Origin: Nocardia salmonicida NBRC 13393
GTDB lineage: Bacteria > Actinomycetota > Actinomycetes > Mycobacteriales > Mycobacteriaceae
Length of the DNA stretch: 64,000 nucleotides
Direction: 5' to 3'
Assembly (NCBI RefSeq): GCF_001613085.1
Contig: NZ_BDBR01000001.1
Location: forward strand, 1-64,000
The notes beneath the pieces were generated by a model. That model saw only the letters and a list, made by a program, of their open reading frames with translations. It ran no database searches and was not told the DNA's origin. The translations under genes were made by a program, and so were the position numbers. Below are positions 1 to 10,063 of this stretch, in pieces. Each line of letters begins with the position of its first letter. Positions within the stretch are counted from its first letter, which is position 1.

Positions 1-348
1 GGTGAAGGGCGGACTCACCTCGATGTGGCGGTCGGTGACGATCGAGGGCGAGATGATCGCCGCGATCGCGTCCTTCGGGATCTTGACTCCCGAGTCGATG
101 GTCATGTGGACCTCGACGTAGGTGCCCTTGGGCACGATCTTGTCGACCTTGCCCACCGCGAGGCCGAGGACCATGATCTCGTTGCCCTCGTACATGCCCG
201 CGATGTTCTCGAAGTCGGCGGTGATCTTGGTCGAGCGGCCGAGCCCGTCATGGGCGGTCAGCGCGGAACAGCTCAGCGTCATTGTCGCGGCGGCGGCCGC
301 CGCGACAATGCGAAACGGTCTCTTCACGGTGCTGTGTGCAAGCCCCAC
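1..348 (-). CDS. Mce-family protein (5' part; gene runs off the left edge)
   Basis: The first 116 codons of an Mce/MlaD-family protein, the cell-envelope substrate-binding component of Mce lipid/steroid importers. The N-terminus has a basic stretch, an Ala-rich hydrophobic segment and an LSCSA motif that resembles a lipobox. It is followed by the MlaD fold, with the family-typical VLGLAVGKVDKI and SPSIVTDRHIEVSP. GTG at 348 is chosen because AAGGA lies at a good distance upstream; an in-frame GTG at 327 is the alternative. The gene is first in a leftward unit whose promoter carries the same 38-bp element as the catabolic operon at 5-6 kb, so it may import that pathway's substrate. The Mce subclass (A-F) cannot be set from this fragment. 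Confidence 0.88.
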   Translation of the reverse strand, partial: MGLAHSTVKRPFRIVAAAAAATMTLSCSALTAHDGLGRSTKITADFENIAGMYEGNEIMVLGLAVGKVDKIVPKGTYVEVHMTIDSGVKIPKDAIAAIISPSIVTDRHIEVSPPFT

Positions 349-412: not shown

Positions 413-450
413 CTGACGAAATAGTCACAGATGACTATTTGATCAGTCAA
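413..450 (-). promoter_or_regulatory. Promoter/operator of the Mce unit, shared element copy 1
   Basis: Read leftward, this 38-bp element begins TTGACTGA and ends TCGTCAG, with AGTCAT and GTGAC blocks between. It matches the element at 6450-6487 at 30 of 38 positions. Within it a perfect inverted repeat, AAATAGTCA-N4-TGACTATTT, covers 419-440, and a TGACT-N8-AGTCA dyad covers 432-449. TTGACT could be a -35 box, with TGACTAT 17 bp further as an extended -10. The Mce start codon lies 65 bp downstream. The natural candidate for the binding protein is the TetR regulator at 6568-7215. Confidence 0.75.
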
Positions 451-777: not shown

Positions 778-1599
778 TTACGGCGCACGTCGGGTACGCG
801 CGGACCCGACGCCGTATGCCTTGGCCATGACGGCCTCGATTACGCTGCGCGGTAACAATCTACGGGCCAGGAACACAGCCGGTGCGTTGCTGCCGACGGC
901 ATAGAGCGGCAACGTCTGTTCGGCTTCGACAGCTTCGAGCACAGTGCGGGCGACCTCGTCCGCCGTTATTCCCTTGGCTTCCTTCGCATCGAGGACGGCG
1001 ATCGCCGAGGTGAACTGTTCGATGTAGGGGGAGTCGCTGCTGATGTATTTGGTGCGGCGTCCGGATATTCCGGTCGCGATGGAACCTGGTTCGACGGTGG
1101 TGATGTCGATTCCGTACGGTTTCAGTTCATACCGTGCGGCGGTTGCGAAGCCCTTGAGGGCTGCCTTGGTTGCGACATAGGACGATCGGTAGGCGAGGGG
1201 GAAGCTCGCGAGCATCGACCCGATGTTGACGATCCTGCCGCGACGCTGCTGTCGCATCCCCGGTAGCAGTAACTGAGTCAGTTCGATGGCACCGAAAACG
1301 TTGAGCTGGAACAACCTCTGCACGGCATCCATCGGTAGCTCTTCGAGCGGTCCGCATTGGCTCTCACCGGCGTTGTTCACCAAAACGTCGACGGCTAGGT
1401 CGTCGAGCGCGTCGATGAACCGGGCGATCGAGCCACGATCGGTGAGATCCAGGTCGCGGTAGTCGACGCCCGGCACGGGATCGGTCACGGTTGAACCGTC
1501 GCGGCTTGTCCCGAGCACGCGGTAGCCTCGAGCAACCAAGGCGGTGGCGACGGCCCGTCCTATTCCGGAGGACGCCCCGGTGACGATGGCTGTCTTCAT
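778..1599 (-). CDS. Short-chain dehydrogenase/reductase
   Basis: A classical SDR of 273 aa that would oxidise or reduce a hydroxyl/keto group with NAD(P)(H). The cofactor motif TGASSGIG is at residues 7-14, NNAG at 75-78, the catalytic Ser near 128 and Tyr141-x3-Lys145 (YVATK). The ATG at 1599 has an excellent AGGAGGT upstream and overlaps the P450 stop codon by 4 bp, so it is translationally coupled and is the last gene of the operon. The C-terminal extension past 230 is basic. The substrate is not evident from sequence; by context it is an intermediate or side chain of the compound handled by the P450 and dioxygenase. A longer open frame upstream is only an overlap with the P450 gene. Confidence 0.93.
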   Translation of the reverse strand: MKTAIVTGASSGIGRAVATALVARGYRVLGTSRDGSTVTDPVPGVDYRDLDLTDRGSIARFIDALDDLAVDVLVNNAGESQCGPLEELPMDAVQRLFQLNVFGAIELTQLLLPGMRQQRRGRIVNIGSMLASFPLAYRSSYVATKAALKGFATAARYELKPYGIDITTVEPGSIATGISGRRTKYISSDSPYIEQFTSAIAVLDAKEAKGITADEVARTVLEAVEAEQTLPLYAVGSNAPAVFLARRLLPRSVIEAVMAKAYGVGSARTRRAP

Positions 1600-2798
1600 G
1601 CCGACCTCCTGTCTGCTGGGACGAGCTCGAGCGGAAGACATTCCAGCCTGCGAATGATGTTGTTGACGGCCCACTTCGGTGTGCCGACCAGCTCGATGCG
1701 TTCGACACGATCGGCCAGTGCCCGCAGCATCGACGTGGTTTCGAGCCGTGCCAACGACCGACCCGCGCAGCCGTGCACACCCCAGCCGAAGCCGAGCTGG
1801 CGGGCCGCGTCGCGGGTGATGTCGAAGGACTCGGGCTGATCCCATTCGGCCGGGTCCCGGTTTGCGGAGGCGAAGAGCACCAGTACGCGGCTGCCACCCG
1901 GGATTTTCACCCCACCGATGTCGGCGTCGCGCGCGGCCGTGCGTGAGAACGCGCGCAAGGGCGGTTCGATCCGCACGACCTCGTTGACGGCTTGGGGTAT
2001 CAGGCCCGGATCCGATCGCACGGCCCGCCACTGCGTGGGGTTCTGTGAAAACAGGTAGAGCGCACTCGAGATCGCGCCGATGGTGGTGTCCAGCGACGGG
2101 GCCAGGTAGTCGATCATGAGCGCCGGGCACGATTTCTTGTCGATCCTGCCCTCGTCGGCGGCGCGGAAGACGTCGCTGCCCATGCTGCCGTCGAGAACCG
2201 ATCGATCGCGTGCGACGCGGCGGGCGAAGGCCAGCATCTCCGAGGCCGCCTTCGCCGCGCCGATGGAGTGCCGGTTGATCGGACCCATCGAGTCGAACGT
2301 CGCACCGGCCCAGCGCAGCAGTTCCGCGCGCCCGTCGTGCGGCCAGCCGATAAGATCCGGGACCACCGAAAGTGGTAGCGCGGTCGCGAGATCGTCGACC
2401 CCGTCGATGCGGTTGTTCGCCAACGCCTTGTCCACGACGCTTTCGGCGAAGCGCTCGATGCTGTCTGTCACTTCCCGGAGTGCCTTGGGCGTCAGCCGGT
2501 GTGCGAGAACGGACCGTTTGGTGGCGTGTTCTTCTGCGTCGCTGTTGAGGGTGGTGCCCCGGCCGAGGCGGTTGGCGACGGGGTTCAGCGACACCCCGCA
2601 GCCCGAGATGAAGGTCGCGTCGTCCCGGAGGACGGCCTTGCACTCGGCGTATCGGGAAATCGCGAAGATGCGCTGGCGCGGTAGCCACACCACCGGGCCG
2701 GCCGCGCGCAGTGCCGCATAGTGCGGGTACGGATCGAGGATCGCCTCGGTACTGAAGAGATTCTCGCGATATCGCGGGATGGAAATGTCAACCGCCAT
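1596..2798 (-). CDS. Cytochrome P450
   Basis: A soluble bacterial P450 of 400 aa. The haem-binding loop FGWGVHGCAG puts the thiolate ligand near Cys344. The K-helix ExxR is EVVR. The I-helix reads DYLAPSLDTTIGA, where the usual A-G-x-D/E-T is relaxed to A-P-S-L-D-T-T. No ferredoxin or reductase is encoded beside it. Its start overlaps the 3' end of the flavin monooxygenase by 11 bp and its end overlaps the SDR start, so it is made from the same mRNA. It probably hydroxylates the substrate or an early intermediate. Actinobacterial estrogen degradation is known to pair a P450 (AedA) with an extradiol dioxygenase (AedB), but equivalence here is only a hypothesis. Confidence 0.93.
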   Translation of the reverse strand: MAVDISIPRYRENLFSTEAILDPYPHYAALRAAGPVVWLPRQRIFAISRYAECKAVLRDDATFISGCGVSLNPVANRLGRGTTLNSDAEEHATKRSVLAHRLTPKALREVTDSIERFAESVVDKALANNRIDGVDDLATALPLSVVPDLIGWPHDGRAELLRWAGATFDSMGPINRHSIGAAKAASEMLAFARRVARDRSVLDGSMGSDVFRAADEGRIDKKSCPALMIDYLAPSLDTTIGAISSALYLFSQNPTQWRAVRSDPGLIPQAVNEVVRIEPPLRAFSRTAARDADIGGVKIPGGSRVLVLFASANRDPAEWDQPESFDITRDAARQLGFGWGVHGCAGRSLARLETTSMLRALADRVERIELVGTPKWAVNNIIRRLECLPLELVPADRRSA

Positions 2799-4356
2799 GG
2801 GAACTCCTGTGCGTGGAGGTAGAGGACAGAGCGGGGCAGCTCGGTACGCGAGTGTGTAGGGAGGGGACCGATCGGGAGGTCGCCAGCACGGTTTTGTCCG
2901 GTCGCACGATCGCAGCCGTCGCGCGTCCGCGGCGCAGCCATTCGCCGAGCTCGGAGGACGCCGGTACCGTCAGGATCGCGGCGCCGCGTCGGTCGAGTTC
3001 GGTCCGCTGTTCGCGGGTGAGCGGGGTGGTCGCGAGGAAGAGGAAGCGTCCGGCGGCGATCTCGTCGACCCGCGTGCTGCCGTCGACGACGCAGTTCGGA
3101 CACAGCGAGCCGGCCAGGTCGCGCGGCTGAATCGCTTGTCGCGTAACGAATATCGACCGGGACAGGCGCGGTGTGGCGCTGTCGGTGACCTTGGATCTGA
3201 GGAGGGGAATGTGGCCGAGGAGCGGCACCACCCGCTTGCGGATCACCTGACCCGCCGCCGCCCCACTCGTCATCGCCCGTCCGACGGCGACGGCCAGGCC
3301 GATCATTGACGCGACGTGCGGATCACGTTCGGATTGATAGGTGTCGAGTGCGTCGTCGGGTAGTTCCGATCTCGAGAAGGCGACCAGTTTCCAGATCAAG
3401 TTATGGGCGTCACGCAGGCCCGCCCCCATGCCCTGCCCGATGAACGGCGGAGTGAGATGCGCGGCGTCACCGAGCAGAAAGACCCTGCGGTCACGCCATC
3501 GGTCGACTACTTGGGCGCGGAAGGTGTACTCGGTGGACCGGATCAGCGTCAGCTCAGGATCGCTCACCTCGCGCAGCCAGGGGGACACGAGCGGCTCGAT
3601 GGTGTCGAGCGTGGCGTACTGGTCCGCGGTTTCGTCGTCGCGGAGCTTGAACTCCCAGCGGTAGCGTGACGCGCCGATGCGCATGTACGTCGCGGCGCGT
3701 TCGGGATCGCACACCTGGTGGACGCCCTCCCACTGCCCGAGATCGGTATCGGTGGCGATGTCGACCACCAGCCACCGCTGTTCGAAACCCAGGTCGCGCA
3801 TCCGCGAACCGATCGACGCGCGCACGACGCTGTTGGCGCCATCGCAGCCGAGGACGAATTCCGCTGTGACAGCTCGTCGTTCGCCTGTCTCGGCATCGCG
3901 GTATCTCACGCGAGCGCGATCACGCAGGTTCGCCACCTCGAGTACTTCGCATCCACCCCGTATCCGCACGCCCTCGGTCGCGGCCACCCTGGACCGCAGC
4001 ACGCGCTCGAGATCTGGCTGGTCGAACATGTTGGCCTGCGGGAACCCGTGCGGCATCCGGTCGGGGTCGCGGTCGAATTCCGCGAGCGTGGTGATGGCGG
4101 AGTCGACCAGCCGAAGGCCGCGGCCGGGGCGGGAGATTCCCGCGAACTCCTCGCCGAGTCCGAGGTCGGCCAGTACGCGGTACACCTCGTCGTCGAGATG
4201 CACCGCTCGCGGCTGCGGGTACACCTCGTCCCAGCGATCGACTATCAGGCACTCGATGCCGTACCGCGCCAGCAGTAGCGCGGCTGTCATGCCGGTCGGG
4301 CCCGCGCCGACGATCACGACCGGGTAGTGCTCGACCAGGCCTCGATCAGTGTCCAT
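2788..4356 (-). CDS. FAD-dependent aromatic-ring monooxygenase (MhpA-like)
   Basis: A class A flavoprotein hydroxylase of 522 aa that converts a phenol to a catechol with NAD(P)H and O2. The FAD-binding GAGPTG is at residues 17-22, the DG motif at GCDGANSVVR, and the GD motif LLGDAAHLTPPFIGQGMGAG at about 295-315. The length and a C-terminal thioredoxin-like domain (LCPNC at its start) place it with the 3-(3-hydroxyphenyl)propionate hydroxylase / polyketide hydroxylase group. The gene overlaps FAH upstream by 11 bp (4346-4356) and the P450 downstream. It would supply the catechol cleaved by the extradiol dioxygenase of the same operon. The true substrate is unknown. Confidence 0.9.
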   Translation of the reverse strand: MDTDRGLVEHYPVVIVGAGPTGMTAALLLARYGIECLIVDRWDEVYPQPRAVHLDDEVYRVLADLGLGEEFAGISRPGRGLRLVDSAITTLAEFDRDPDRMPHGFPQANMFDQPDLERVLRSRVAATEGVRIRGGCEVLEVANLRDRARVRYRDAETGERRAVTAEFVLGCDGANSVVRASIGSRMRDLGFEQRWLVVDIATDTDLGQWEGVHQVCDPERAATYMRIGASRYRWEFKLRDDETADQYATLDTIEPLVSPWLREVSDPELTLIRSTEYTFRAQVVDRWRDRRVFLLGDAAHLTPPFIGQGMGAGLRDAHNLIWKLVAFSRSELPDDALDTYQSERDPHVASMIGLAVAVGRAMTSGAAAGQVIRKRVVPLLGHIPLLRSKVTDSATPRLSRSIFVTRQAIQPRDLAGSLCPNCVVDGSTRVDEIAAGRFLFLATTPLTREQRTELDRRGAAILTVPASSELGEWLRRGRATAAIVRPDKTVLATSRSVPSLHTRVPSCPALSSTSTHRSSHGG

Positions 4357-5284
4357 GCCGCACCGTCGTGCGCTGAATGCCGAGGTCGAGCGCGCCGTCC
4401 GGGGTCGAGACGGTCAGCTCCACAACGTCGCCGTCTTGCAGGTAGCGCGGATTCGACGCCTGCTTGTTGAAGAAGATCTTCCACTTGAGCGCGGGCGGTA
4501 CCAGCGACCCGAGGATCTCGATCGGCTTGGCGGGAGCCTTCAGGGCTGTTCCGCCGGGGGTGCCTGTCAGCAGTAGGTCACCCGCGTCCATGCGCTGGAA
4601 TCGGGTGAGGGCGCGCAGGGTTTCGAGCGGACTGTAGATCATCTCTGCCGCCGTGCTGTGCTGGCGCACTTCGCCATTGACACGCAGCGTCAGGCAGAGG
4701 TCGTGGAATCTGTCGAATTCACCCGCCTCGAGCAGCAGCAACACCGGGCCGACCGGTGTGAATGTCGGATACGACTTGCCCTCGTAGAACTGGGTTCTGG
4801 GCAGCTGGACGTCGCGGGCGGACACATCGTCGGTGATGACCAACCCCGTGATGAAGTCGCCGATGTTCGAGCTGTCGAGTTCGGTGCCGACGGGCAGCGT
4901 CGCGCCGAAAACGAGCCCGATCTCGATTTCGTAGTCCAGCAACCGCACGTGCGCCGGTTTGACGATGTCGTCCTCGGGACCACTGATGGACCCGGACGAC
5001 TTGCGGAAGAACGTCAGCGGCACGGTCGCCGGGTTCATCCCTGAATCCTTCACGTGCGACACGTAATTGGTCATCTGCGCGACGACCCGACATGGCGTGG
5101 TCACGGGGGAGATCAGCGCCAAGTTCTCCACCGGCATGGTGTCGCTGCCCCTGCGCGCTGCTTCGATCGCGGCTCGGTGGACCAGGAGCTCGCCCGTGGT
5201 CGTGGCGTCGGTGTCGATTCGGACAGCGCCGTCCGGGGTCAGCACCCACCACGCGTCGGTGGTACGCAGCACGGAAATGCTCAT
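4346..5284 (-). CDS. Fumarylacetoacetate hydrolase family protein
   Basis: A 312-aa FAH-fold enzyme that would cleave or hydrate a C-C bond of a ring-fission product with a divalent metal. DYEIEIGLVFG supplies two of the acidic metal ligands, and ITDDVSARDVQ and GDLLLTGTPGG are family signatures. The N-terminal 60 residues form the small lid domain usual in this family. The start at 5284 overlaps the dioxygenase stop (ATGA). In meta-cleavage pathways such enzymes act after ring opening, which fits its place directly behind the dioxygenase. A longer open frame reading into the dioxygenase gene is not the real N-terminus. Confidence 0.9.
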   Translation of the reverse strand: MSISVLRTTDAWWVLTPDGAVRIDTDATTTGELLVHRAAIEAARRGSDTMPVENLALISPVTTPCRVVAQMTNYVSHVKDSGMNPATVPLTFFRKSSGSISGPEDDIVKPAHVRLLDYEIEIGLVFGATLPVGTELDSSNIGDFITGLVITDDVSARDVQLPRTQFYEGKSYPTFTPVGPVLLLLEAGEFDRFHDLCLTLRVNGEVRQHSTAAEMIYSPLETLRALTRFQRMDAGDLLLTGTPGGTALKAPAKPIEILGSLVPPALKWKIFFNKQASNPRYLQDGDVVELTVSTPDGALDLGIQRTTVRHGH

Positions 5285-6417
5285 GAGTTGGCTACTTTCA
5301 GCAGGCCCCGCAAGCGCTGGGCGTCGAATTCGTTGTCTCGGTGCAGCGAAGAGAAGATGGACCGGAGTTCCCGCAGCGATTGGCGGCCCGGTGCTGTGCC
5401 GAGGAAGTCCTTGGTCGCAGGCGGGCCCCACTGCGCCAGGCCCGAGGCCGTCATCGGCGCCCAGCCGGGTTCCAGCGAGCTGTCGAACAGGTCGCCGTCG
5501 CTGAAGTGCTCGACCAGGAAACCGTCGGGATCGCGCCAGTAGTCGAAGATCTGACTGCCCTGGATATGCCGTCCGATACCCCAGGATCGGCGATACCCGC
5601 GTTCGGCGAGGAACTCGCCACCGGCCGCGAGCGCGTCGAGGTCGCACACCTGATACGCCGAATGCACGTATCGATCCGAAGGGCCCAGTGTCATGGCGAG
5701 GGTGTGATGGTCGGTGGGCGTGCTCCCGCGATCGCAGCGGATGAAGGCCATCACCGGCCCGCGTTCGCGCTGCCCGTCGTAGTACAGGAAGTCGCTGACG
5801 CTGAGTCCGAGATGCTCCAGATACCAGTTCAGGTTCTCCAGGTAGCGGGTGCGCGCGAGGACGACATGGCCGAGCCGCTCGACCCCGGCAGGCACCCGCG
5901 GTGGCCGCTGCGTCGCATTGATCCGGGCGGCGGACTCACCGACGTTGAACAGATGGGCACGCTGGCCCGGCAGCTGCGGCAGCGGGTGTGCGCCGGCCAC
6001 CACGCGCACGGTCTGGCCGCCCGGATCGTGCAAGGTGACGCCGATGCCGCCGATACTCTCGGGCAGTCGCTCCACGCGATGACCCGTTACCTCGGCGAGC
6101 CTGAGCACATCGGACTCCTCGCCGGCCAGGAACGCCGCGCCGACGAAGCGGGTGCGAGCACCCTTGCGGATGATCACGCACGCCGTACCCGCCTGCGTGC
6201 CGCGCAGGTGGATCTCCTCCGAGGTGCGGTAGGCGACAGAGAACCCGAAGGCCAGCGCGAAAGCCTCGGCCTTCAGCAGATCGGGCTTGCGGAACTCGAG
6301 CCAGGCGAGGTCGGCAACCTTGATGATCGGATTGCTGATACGGCCGGGGTGCTCGCCCGGCAGTGCACCCTGATCGACGTGCAGGTCGCGATGTGCGTCG
6401 CTGCGGACCTCCGACAT
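5281..6417 (-). CDS. Extradiol ring-cleavage dioxygenase (VOC, BphC-like)
   Basis: A 378-aa two-domain vicinal-oxygen-chelate protein of the type I extradiol dioxygenase kind. Three expected Fe(II) ligands are visible: His in GHVVLART, His in TDHHTLAMT and Glu in DGFLVEHFSDGD. It is longer than the usual roughly 300 aa, with about 25 extra residues at the N-terminus and a 60-residue C-terminal tail. The start at 6417 is chosen for the strong GGAGGAG behind it; an ATG 16 codons upstream lacks this. It is first in a five-gene operon, 33 bp below the shared 38-bp promoter element. It would open the catechol made by the flavin monooxygenase or the P450. Confidence 0.9.
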   Translation of the reverse strand: MSEVRSDAHRDLHVDQGALPGEHPGRISNPIIKVADLAWLEFRKPDLLKAEAFALAFGFSVAYRTSEEIHLRGTQAGTACVIIRKGARTRFVGAAFLAGEESDVLRLAEVTGHRVERLPESIGGIGVTLHDPGGQTVRVVAGAHPLPQLPGQRAHLFNVGESAARINATQRPPRVPAGVERLGHVVLARTRYLENLNWYLEHLGLSVSDFLYYDGQRERGPVMAFIRCDRGSTPTDHHTLAMTLGPSDRYVHSAYQVCDLDALAAGGEFLAERGYRRSWGIGRHIQGSQIFDYWRDPDGFLVEHFSDGDLFDSSLEPGWAPMTASGLAQWGPPATKDFLGTAPGRQSLRELRSIFSSLHRDNEFDAQRLRGLLKVANS

Positions 6418-6449: not shown

Positions 6450-6487
6450 CTGACGATATCGTCACCTATGACTGTATAGTCAGTCAA
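6450..6487 (-). promoter_or_regulatory. Promoter/operator of the catabolic operon, shared element copy 2
   Basis: This is the partner of 413-450 (30/38 identical, same orientation). It holds the dyad TGACT-N8-AGTCA (6469-6486) and a second dyad TGACT-N4-AGTCA (6469-6482). On the leftward strand TTGACT and TGACGAT are 17 bp apart, as in copy 1. It lies between the divergent dioxygenase and TetR genes, so one bound repressor could control both. Confidence 0.78.
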
Positions 6488-6567
6488 GGGTTCTGAGGGA
6501 GTCGTCAGATTTGAAGGCGATTAAGATCGCGGCAGCTGAAACCACTGCCAGAAGGTGACCAACGAAG

Positions 6568-7215
6568 ATGTCCGCCACAGCGAACAGGCTCGAACGCCGC
6601 AAGGCTCTCACCCGCTCGGCGCTGATCGCCGCCGGGCAACGCTTCATCGCCGAGGGCAGGCTCAACGCGCCCATCCTCGAGATAACGCAGGCCGCGGACG
6701 TGGGAATGGGCTCGTTCTACAACCACTTCGACAGCAAGGAAGAACTGTTCGTCGCGGCGGTCGACAGCGCGTTGGAGTCGCTGGGCGACTACCTCGACTC
6801 ACTCACGACCGACCTCGCCGATCCGGCGGAGATCTTCGCCCAGTCCTTCCGGATTGTCGGCCGGCTGTTTCGGCTACAGCCTGATCTCAGCCGGGTCCTG
6901 ATCAACTCCGGCGCCTCGCTGATCGAATCCGAGCACGGCCTGGCACCTCGCGCCGCACGAGACATCGCCGCCGCGACACAGGCGGGACGCTTCGTGGTCG
7001 ACGACACCGATCTGGCGATGGCGCTGGTGACCGGATCACTGCTCGGTCTCGGACGCCTGCTGCTACAGCAACCCGATCGCGATTGTGCCGTGACCGTGGA
7101 CGAAATGACCGTGGGAATACTTGTCGCACTTGGTCTCTCGCGTAACGATGCCCAGGAATTGTGCAGTAGACCAGTGCCGTTGGATGCCGAGACCGCGACC
7201 GACGCTCCGAGGTGA
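6568..7215 (+). CDS. TetR-family transcriptional regulator
   Basis: A 215-aa regulator. The N-terminal HTH (residues about 12-58) includes ITQAADVGMGSFYNHFDSKE, the classic TetR recognition-helix region. The C-terminal ligand domain is all-helical and hydrophobic. It is transcribed away from the dioxygenase operon across a 150-bp gap that holds the 6450-6487 element, the usual arrangement for a repressor that senses the pathway substrate. The same element in front of the Mce gene extends its probable regulon. Direct binding is inferred. Confidence 0.92.
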   Translation: MSATANRLERRKALTRSALIAAGQRFIAEGRLNAPILEITQAADVGMGSFYNHFDSKEELFVAAVDSALESLGDYLDSLTTDLADPAEIFAQSFRIVGRLFRLQPDLSRVLINSGASLIESEHGLAPRAARDIAAATQAGRFVVDDTDLAMALVTGSLLGLGRLLLQQPDRDCAVTVDEMTVGILVALGLSRNDAQELCSRPVPLDAETATDAPR

Positions 7216-8692: not shown

Positions 8693-10063
8693 ATGGCACC
8701 TGTAATCACCTCGCTGAACCCCTCTTTCGGACCTCCAGCGGGTTTCAATTCCGTAGTAATCACCGGCTCCGGATTCGCCAACGTCGGTCCGATCAGTGTC
8801 CTGTTCGGTTCGACGGCAACGACATTCACGATCGACTCCGATACGCAACTCACGGCCATCGTCCCGCCCGGAACCGGCACGGTGAACGTCACCGTGAAGG
8901 TTCTGCTGGACGGCACGAGCAACCCGGTGCCCTACACCTATGGGGTCCCCGCTCCTACCTTGACCAGCGTCAATCCGAGTTCGGGATCGGCGGCCGGCGG
9001 GACGACCGTCGTGCTCACCGGGACGAACCTGACCGGAGTCACGGCGGTGAGTTTCGGTGGAACACCGGCAACCTCGTTCACGGTCAACTCCTCGACGCAG
9101 ATCACGGCGGTGACCCCTGCCAATGCGGCGGGGGCGGTCCAGGTCACTGTCACCGCTCCCGGCGGGACCAGTAACGGCGTCGCGTTCACCTATATCGCGG
9201 TGCCCACCTTGATCAGCGTCGTTCCGAGCTCGGGCCCGCCCAGCGGTGGGACAGTGGTAGTCCTCACCGGCACAGGCTTGACCGGCGCCACCGCGGTAAG
9301 TTTCGGCGGCACCCCTGCGACCCTGTTCGCTGTCACCAGCCCCACCCAGATCACCGTCCTCGCCCCAGCTCACGCGGCGGGGACAGTGCAGGTCACCGTC
9401 ACCACCCCTGGCGGAACCAGCAACGGTCTCGCATTCACCTACGTTTCGGGTCTGCTGCCGGTCAATGTCGGCACTGCCTCGTCTTTCGCGGTGCTGGGTG
9501 CCGCGACGGTCACCAACACCGGAGCCACGGCAATCACCGGTGACCTGGGTGTCAGCCCGGGAACCTCGATCACCGGATTCCCGCCGGGAACGGTGACCAG
9601 CGGAGTGATCCACGCCGGGGACGCGACTGCGGCGCAGGCACACGCTGATCTGCAGGCCGCCTACCTCGACGCGGCGGGACGGTTACCCACCGCACCCATC
9701 ACCACCGATCTCGGGGGACAAACCCTGACTTCGGGGGTGTACAACGCAGTTGCCGGGATCGGTCTCAACGGCACCGTCACCCTCGACGGGCAAGGAAATC
9801 CGAACGCGGTGTTCATCTTCCAGGCCGCGACGACGCTGATCACCGGGGCCAGCAGCGCCGTGACTCTCATCAACGGTGCCACTGCGGCCAATGTGTTCTG
9901 GCAGGTCGGCAGCTCGGCCACGCTGGGCACCAGCACCGACTTCGTCGGCACCATCCTGGCCTTCACCTCGGTCACCGTGACCGGCGGCACCACCGCGGAC
10001 GGGAGGATCCTGGCCCTCAACGGCGCAATCACCCTCGACACCAACACCATCGCTCTCCCCTGA
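8693..10063 (+). CDS. TIG-repeat protein with ice-binding (DUF3494) domain
   Basis: A 456-aa protein with three IPT/TIG immunoglobulin-like repeats (residues about 1-83, 87-168 and 170-250; each with an SLNPSFGPP- or SVNPSSGSA-like start). A DUF3494 ice-binding beta-helix follows from about 255 to the end, marked by ASSFAVLGAATVTNTGATAI, NAVFIFQAATTLI and ADGRILALNGAITLDTNTI. Ser, Thr and Gly are abundant. There is no signal peptide, which is odd for a domain normally found outside the cell; export may use another route or an upstream start has been lost. GGAAAG precedes the ATG. Family members bind ice or act as adhesins. A perfect hairpin terminator follows. Confidence 0.9.
   Translation: MAPVITSLNPSFGPPAGFNSVVITGSGFANVGPISVLFGSTATTFTIDSDTQLTAIVPPGTGTVNVTVKVLLDGTSNPVPYTYGVPAPTLTSVNPSSGSAAGGTTVVLTGTNLTGVTAVSFGGTPATSFTVNSSTQITAVTPANAAGAVQVTVTAPGGTSNGVAFTYIAVPTLISVVPSSGPPSGGTVVVLTGTGLTGATAVSFGGTPATLFAVTSPTQITVLAPAHAAGTVQVTVTTPGGTSNGLAFTYVSGLLPVNVGTASSFAVLGAATVTNTGATAITGDLGVSPGTSITGFPPGTVTSGVIHAGDATAAQAHADLQAAYLDAAGRLPTAPITTDLGGQTLTSGVYNAVAGIGLNGTVTLDGQGNPNAVFIFQAATTLITGASSAVTLINGATAANVFWQVGSSATLGTSTDFVGTILAFTSVTVTGGTTADGRILALNGAITLDTNTIALP

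Follow-up and report, generated by a model that had tools for sequence, protein, structure and literature searches.

Analysis of a 64,000-nucleotide stretch of Nocardia salmonicida NBRC 13393 (hereinafter the window) uncovered a 38-bp element that is quite probably the combined operator and promoter of a RolR-type TetR repressor, acting on a predicted aromatic ring-cleavage operon, on the repressor's own gene and on a solitary Mce-subunit gene, with a phenolic compound bringing about their derepression. The element occurs at 413-450 and 6450-6487, in both cases upstream of a leftward gene, with the second copy situated in the spacer between the divergent VOC and TetR genes. Direct comparison within the 64-kb window gives 30 identities in 38 positions without a gap. 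Read in the direction of the genes, each site presents a predicted -35 box, TTGACT, and two TGAC-N6-GTCA palindromes separated by 4 bp, and the TTGACT and TGAC boxes are 17 bp apart in both. Of these palindromes, the one that we call the core lies 65 bp before the GTG start (348) of the Mce gene in the first site (414-427) and 33 bp before the ATG (6417) of the VOC gene in the second (6451-6464). The features are collected in Table 1. Further along the window, a plus-strand gene at 8693-10063 codes for three IPT/TIG domains and an ice-binding-like (PF11999) domain, and is unrelated to this finding.

Table 1. Genes and predicted regulatory sites of the cluster, in window coordinates.
Feature	Position	Strand	Remarks
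Lone Mce-subunit gene	1..348	-	GTG start 348, lipobox LSCS; MlaD/MCE domain, Pfam MlaD E 1.9e-16
Mce-gene operator (predicted)	414..445	-	Two TGAC-N6-GTCA palindromes, 4 bp apart; core 414-427 TGACGAAATAGTCA
Second palindrome of Mce-gene operator	432-445	-	One mismatch
Predicted -35 box TTGACT, Mce-gene promoter	445..450	-	Core spacing as in 67/76 related TetR/VOC promoters
SDR (short-chain dehydrogenase)	778..1599	-	Pfam adh_short
Cytochrome P450	1596..2798	-	Best solved relatives include CYP199A4
FAD-dependent aromatic hydroxylase	2788..4356	-	MhpA-like subfamily NF004829, 602 bits vs cut-off 390
Fumarylacetoacetate-hydrolase (FAH)-family enzyme	4346..5284	-	Pfam FAA_hydrolase
Two-domain VOC/extradiol-dioxygenase-like enzyme, first operon gene	5281..6417	-	Pfam Glyoxalase; weak PDB matches
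Predicted operator O1 TGACGATATCGTCA	6451..6464	.	Overlaps predicted promoter of ring-cleavage operon
Outer palindrome TGACTGTATAGTCA	6469..6482	.	Possible second dimer site, conserved less
Predicted -35 box TTGACT, ring-cleavage operon	6482..6487	-	Fixed distance to core in 67/76
Weaker predicted operator O2 TGAGGGAGTCGTCA	6494..6507	.	TetR side, 43 bp from O1
RolR-type TetR regulator	6568..7215	+	PDB 3aqs/3aqt E 7.5e-29; TetR_C_40

Comparisons of Mce sequences indicate that the Mce gene at 1-348 duplicates a single subunit of a complete Mce transporter and stands by itself. In the window its 5' 116 codons are present, the remainder being lost at the edge of the contig (window base 1 is contig base 1), whereas its counterpart in N. 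rhizosphaerihabitans (G096) is complete, coding for 368 aa with a lipobox. No Mce-like neighbours were found beside this counterpart (the corresponding side of the window being cut off), and it does not stand in a complete Mce operon, in which yrbEA, yrbEB and six mce genes would occur together. The same genome has such an operon elsewhere, with two MlaE permeases and six Mce proteins; the counterpart shares 308 of 354 residues with the fourth of these Mce proteins, as against 49-73 identities with each of the other five. It is this closeness to the fourth subunit, combined with the lack of Mce-like neighbours in N. rhizosphaerihabitans, that points to a lone duplicate. Within the window's own genome, bases 1-249 of the window are identical at 247/249 positions (99.2%) to the operon copy on contig C47, from which the gene differs in its signal peptide and promoter, and the ends of four contigs (C1, C35, C44 and C47) fall within copies of this Mce-subunit gene. 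The near-identity would be explained by gene conversion or a recent copying event, the assembly having broken in a (collapsed) repeat. The starred branches of a tree built from 31 operon and 10 lone copies require six or more changes between the two states; lone copies have therefore arisen repeatedly or have repeatedly been overwritten by conversion.

We examined 12 lone mce copies in 11 genomes for their coupling to the putative regulon. An operator-like site is present upstream of five of them, namely those of the window, G096, G020, G006 (C1) and G012. In N. rhizosphaerihabitans such sites occur at both the Mce gene and the ring-cleavage operon, with that of the Mce gene forming a perfect palindrome of 36 bp. 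The Mce genes of N. rosealba (G097) and N. ignorata (G065; truncated at a contig end) each begin with a GTG that overlaps the stop codon of the SDR gene (GTGA), and are therefore within the operon itself. Five copies (G006 (C30), G144, G082, G026 and G125) are without an operator-like site, nor was one found at the seven examined loci that carry mce operons (one of them truncated by a contig end). In G012 the promoter of the lone mce gene is a copy of the genome's own VOC promoter that extends past the start codon (60/78, E 9e-12), an example of how such a coupling can come about. This visible copying, start codon included, together with the five copies devoid of a site and the window's own Mce core, which departs from the exact core at two of its 14 positions, would suit the reading that the Mce site is a copied promoter, plain or weakly regulated, with the Mce gene playing no functional role in degradation. 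However, the N. rhizosphaerihabitans palindrome has kept its symmetry while its letters drifted, and the start/stop overlap in N. rosealba and N. ignorata represents another way to the same coupling; hence, we consider such mere copying improbable. Shared control of the operon and the Mce gene is, on these genomic comparisons, well supported. At the Mce gene, the weight rests on the whole 38 bp and its G096 counterpart, since cores with two mismatches abound in the genome.

The regulator and operator are widespread, and the link to Mce is seen only in Nocardia, where it is confined to some members: among the best 80 of 339 TetR loci, a counted Mce match lies within 10 kb in two, the cut N. ignorata copy falling below the count. 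Three of the copies without an operator (G082, G026 and G125; loci L187, L188 and L189) are lone Mce duplicates located near a P450 gene that seems related to that of the window, and another regulator may control them.

Alignment of the related promoters indicates that the conserved operator is the 14-bp palindrome TGACGATATCGTCA. The sequence-only reading had instead proposed TGACT-N8-AGTCA, which is found in 10 of the 76 aligned related promoters; this low count and the fixed spacing between core and box mark it as a composite of the -35 box and the outer half-site. The survey covered the best 80 of 339 TetR relatives, drawn from named genomes of Nocardia, Rhodococcus, Rhodococcoides, Williamsia, Mycobacterium and its split genera, Antrihabitans, Amycolatopsis, Lentzea, Kutzneria, Pseudonocardia, Nocardiopsis, Nocardioides, Kribbella, Micromonospora and Kitasatospora. 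When the 260 bp preceding the TetR match were read, 73 of these best 80 of 339 loci had a core at up to two mismatches from a degenerate consensus and 72 at up to one, and 57 of the 80 display two core sites 43-45 bp apart. The seven of the 80 that lack a core at up to two mismatches come from Nocardia (three), Williamsia (two), Kitasatospora (one) and Nocardiopsis (one). An alignable best core at up to three mismatches was obtained for 76/80 with a script that required TGA/TCA ends and preferred a following box. In 67/76 of these a CAGTCAA-type box (how the -35 box appears on the other strand) starts exactly 16 bp after the core, where any place within 36 bp of the core would have counted.

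In the window's genome the exact core occurs once, and sites at up to two mismatches number 64 against 8 for the reversed control. The double palindrome is matched in full at 6451-6482 and with one mismatch at 414-445; three further places come next with two mismatches, and at up to three there are 63 matches in the genome versus 15 for the reversed control. Cores with two mismatches and double palindromes with two or three were not used for calling new members of the regulon. Two one-mismatch cores were considered as members and rejected, one on C10 lying inside a gene and one on C17 between the ends of two convergent genes, neither being promoter-like. A search of the literature for the exact core as a literal string returned no match; figures lie outside such a text search, and an operator printed in one could be missed.

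Among 148 Nocardia genomes, 51 contain the exact core and none its reversed control. Of the 73 genomes with a relative of the TetR protein at E up to 1e-30, 49 have the exact core and 24 lack it, while two of the 75 genomes without such a relative have it, both copies being inside genes; as the genomes are related, a significance test would overstate this co-occurrence. Likewise, 67 sites at up to two mismatches were recovered in the 482,223 bases of 26 loci chosen for their TetR or lone mce gene, versus two in the 180,293 bases of 22 other loci. These data bear on the proposal that a different TetR protein or some other regulator, rather than the neighbouring protein, binds the element. Other TetR proteins do exist in the genome, where a first look yielded 156 candidate relatives, but the co-occurrence of core and TetR (49 with and 24 without, against 2 and 73) and the recurrence of sites in the TetR/VOC spacer from Nocardia to Micromonospora make this proposal very unlikely.

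The observations on the DNA with which the sequence-only reading had begun hold: the ungapped 30/38 match exceeds the maximum of 28/38 seen in 2000 dinucleotide-shuffled pairs of the two promoter regions, 1 of 400 random 38-mers of the window had a 30/38 partner elsewhere in it on either strand, and TGACT-N8-AGTCA along with the TTGACT and TGAC boxes at 17 bp is present in both sites. Nor did a scan of the 8.25-Mb genome reveal many unrelated copies of TGACT-N8-AGTCA, its sole occurrences being 432-449 and 6469-6486, with one copy of the reversed control. The suggestion that this motif could retrieve the rest of the regulon fared poorly. Across eight genomes, 8 of its 17 copies are away from the cluster (three inside genes, three not inside genes, and two, in G107, in stretches without a match to the cluster's proteins), compared to seven copies of the reversed control; since the two are about equally frequent, the motif alone has little power, and it was rejected as a regulon finder. 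While that background frequency could be cited for a chance similarity of two AT-rich promoter regions, such an origin of the 38-bp match is scarcely credible, as 0/2000 shuffles reach 30/38 and both sites occur in a second species as well.

The operon reads leftward from 6417 in the order VOC, FAH-family enzyme, FAD hydroxylase, P450 and SDR, and these enzymes would suit a pathway that starts from a substituted phenol or methoxyarene and proceeds by hydroxylation to the opening of the ring. CYP199A4, among the best solved relatives of the P450, demethylates methoxybenzoates. The VOC protein scores far below the cut-offs of the HpaD, BphC and HsaC models. Estrogen (aed) degradation, as described in the available part of one account (PMC12507874), was weighed as the pathway because relatives combine a P450, an extradiol-type enzyme and a CoA ligase (the last at locus L118), and was not adopted. 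For a flavonoid-type pathway, one literature search found no paper.

The 6568-7215 protein is of the RolR type judging by its sequence and its modelled structure. RolR, the repressor of resorcinol catabolism in Corynebacterium glutamicum, is both its nearest sequence match in the PDB (phmmer, E 7.5e-29, with the next entry at 1.2e-05) and its nearest fold (Foldseek ranks 1-4 against the PDB; model pLDDT 88.1). The helix-turn-helix signature given for RolR in the accessible portion of PMC3086911, IxxxAxxGxGxFYxxF, is kept as ITQAADVGMGSFYNHF, and the polar ligand residues named there, Asp94, Arg145, Arg148 and Asp149, correspond to D77, R128, R131 and D132, which are invariant in 11 aligned relatives. 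In the hydrophobic pocket, the alignment has F107 and L142 kept and L111F, L114V and F172T changed, and these three changes may allow a larger ligand than that of RolR.

Beyond the TetR loci, the core points to further candidate members of the regulon. Of its 75 listed places (76 counted), 43 are within 400 bp upstream of a listed TetR match, and of the 32 remaining ones 21 were examined in 20 fetched regions. Twelve of these 21 precede, by a few tens of bp, a stand-alone SDR gene at unlinked Nocardia loci, and the encoded proteins share 60-62% identity with the operon SDR of the window. The rest comprise one before an FAH-family gene, four inside genes, two without an assigned gene and two in G132, before a gene without a Pfam match and before an amidohydrolase gene. 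The SDR loci are the strongest independent evidence for the predicted regulon because there the operator recurs away from the cluster, in front of a relative of one of the operon's enzymes.

Several other loci display variations on this theme. Operator-like sites with 0, 1 and 2 mismatches (L058:5396, L060:12665 and L131:10369) precede a gene for an MMPL-type transporter near an FAD hydroxylase (the assignment coming from a Pfam run on the L060 protein), and an MMPL-type envelope transporter may thus be in the same regulon. Two divergent alpha/beta-hydrolase genes have two operator-like sites, 44 bp apart, between them (L062:17888-17945). Two cores with a TTGACTGA box upstream (L114:5782 and L117:5855) have no recognised gene behind them and are possibly the remnant of a VOC promoter. 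At L118 (G015 C2) the promoter and core are present with no VOC match between the core and the FAH-family gene; the VOC gene seems to be missing there.

Taken together, these observations suggest the following mechanism. The repressor would sit before the ring-cleavage operon, its own gene and the lone Mce gene, with pairs of dimers covering TGACGATATCGTCA and the adjoining half-site and thereby blocking the -10/start region. The block would be lifted at all three places by a phenolic ligand resembling resorcinol, probably the substrate itself or a product formed early on; we infer a ligand of this kind because the four polar RolR residues are kept, even with three of the five hydrophobic ones changed. 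The P450, SDR and FAD hydroxylase would then prepare a catechol-type ring, the VOC enzyme would open it and the FAH-family enzyme would process the product. The lone Mce gene is unlikely to constitute a transporter of its own and would supply a variant fourth subunit to an existing complete Mce transporter, as oMce1A appears to do. The claim of the sequence-only reading that one TetR protein governs both uptake and degradation can thus be retained in its regulatory part, in that the element has, by co-occurrence and upstream position, the behaviour of an operator for the neighbouring TetR protein, and the Mce gene is tied to the operon again in relatives; its uptake part falls short, since a single subunit without a permease is no uptake system alone. 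It is conceivable, though we remain doubtful, that upon induction the variant fourth subunit replaces the constitutive one and changes the cargo, and that this arrangement was invented several times by bringing lone mce genes under catabolic operators; the change of cargo by subunit exchange is a conjecture. In these cases what a substrate-sensing repressor controls appears to be one Mce subunit and not an entire transporter, and the idea that Mce specificity depends on the choice of subunit would thereby become testable.

Three known systems offer parallels. An orphan paralog of Mce1A in M. smegmatis (oMce1A), 84% identical to it, is described in the available part of a preprint (PMC9882608) as enriched with the Mce1 complex in mass spectrometry and as fitting the Mce1A position in the map, with a mixture being suggested. 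As in the window, this is a single-gene duplicate of a subunit of a complete operon (84% identical there, 87% here); unlike oMce1A, which concerns another position, the window's gene codes for a fourth subunit with a lipobox and is under a predicted catabolic repressor.

The RolR system shares with the window a TetR fold (32-35% identity over the Foldseek match), the helix-turn-helix signature, the four polar ligand residues and an operator between the regulator gene and a catabolic operon. As far as the accessible text of PMC9210681 goes, a pair of RolR dimers binds a 29-bp operator, rolO, made up of TGAAC-N4-GTTCA and TTCAT-N2-ATGAA, which is downstream of the transcription start sites and acts as a roadblock. 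Compared with that text, the window's operator has the same plan of a 14-bp TGA..TCA palindrome, a 4-bp spacer and a half-site, but its core reads TGACG-N4-CGTCA and it is predicted to lie over the promoters. The operon enzymes (an extradiol VOC and the FAH family) also differ from those of the RolR system, and the Mce gene is a second predicted target here, unlike there. The new point, as far as sequence can define it, is the operator of a broad and widespread branch of RolR-type regulators, by which the regulon becomes directly testable.

Finally, KstR governs the cholesterol transporter (mce4) and ring-degradation genes in mycobacteria, according to the part of PMC6678751 at hand; joint control of Mce and degradation genes by one TetR repressor, the feature that the KstR regulon has in common with the window, is therefore already known. 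The 6568-7215 protein was considered as KstR itself and rejected, with 20.4 bits in the NF033703 model versus a cut-off of 280. In contrast to the KstR regulon, the window couples one Mce subunit, not a whole yrbE-mce operon, to enzymes that are predicted to act on aromatic compounds and not on steroids. What is new relative to that precedent is a single transporter subunit, in place of the whole transporter, as the predicted co-regulated gene.
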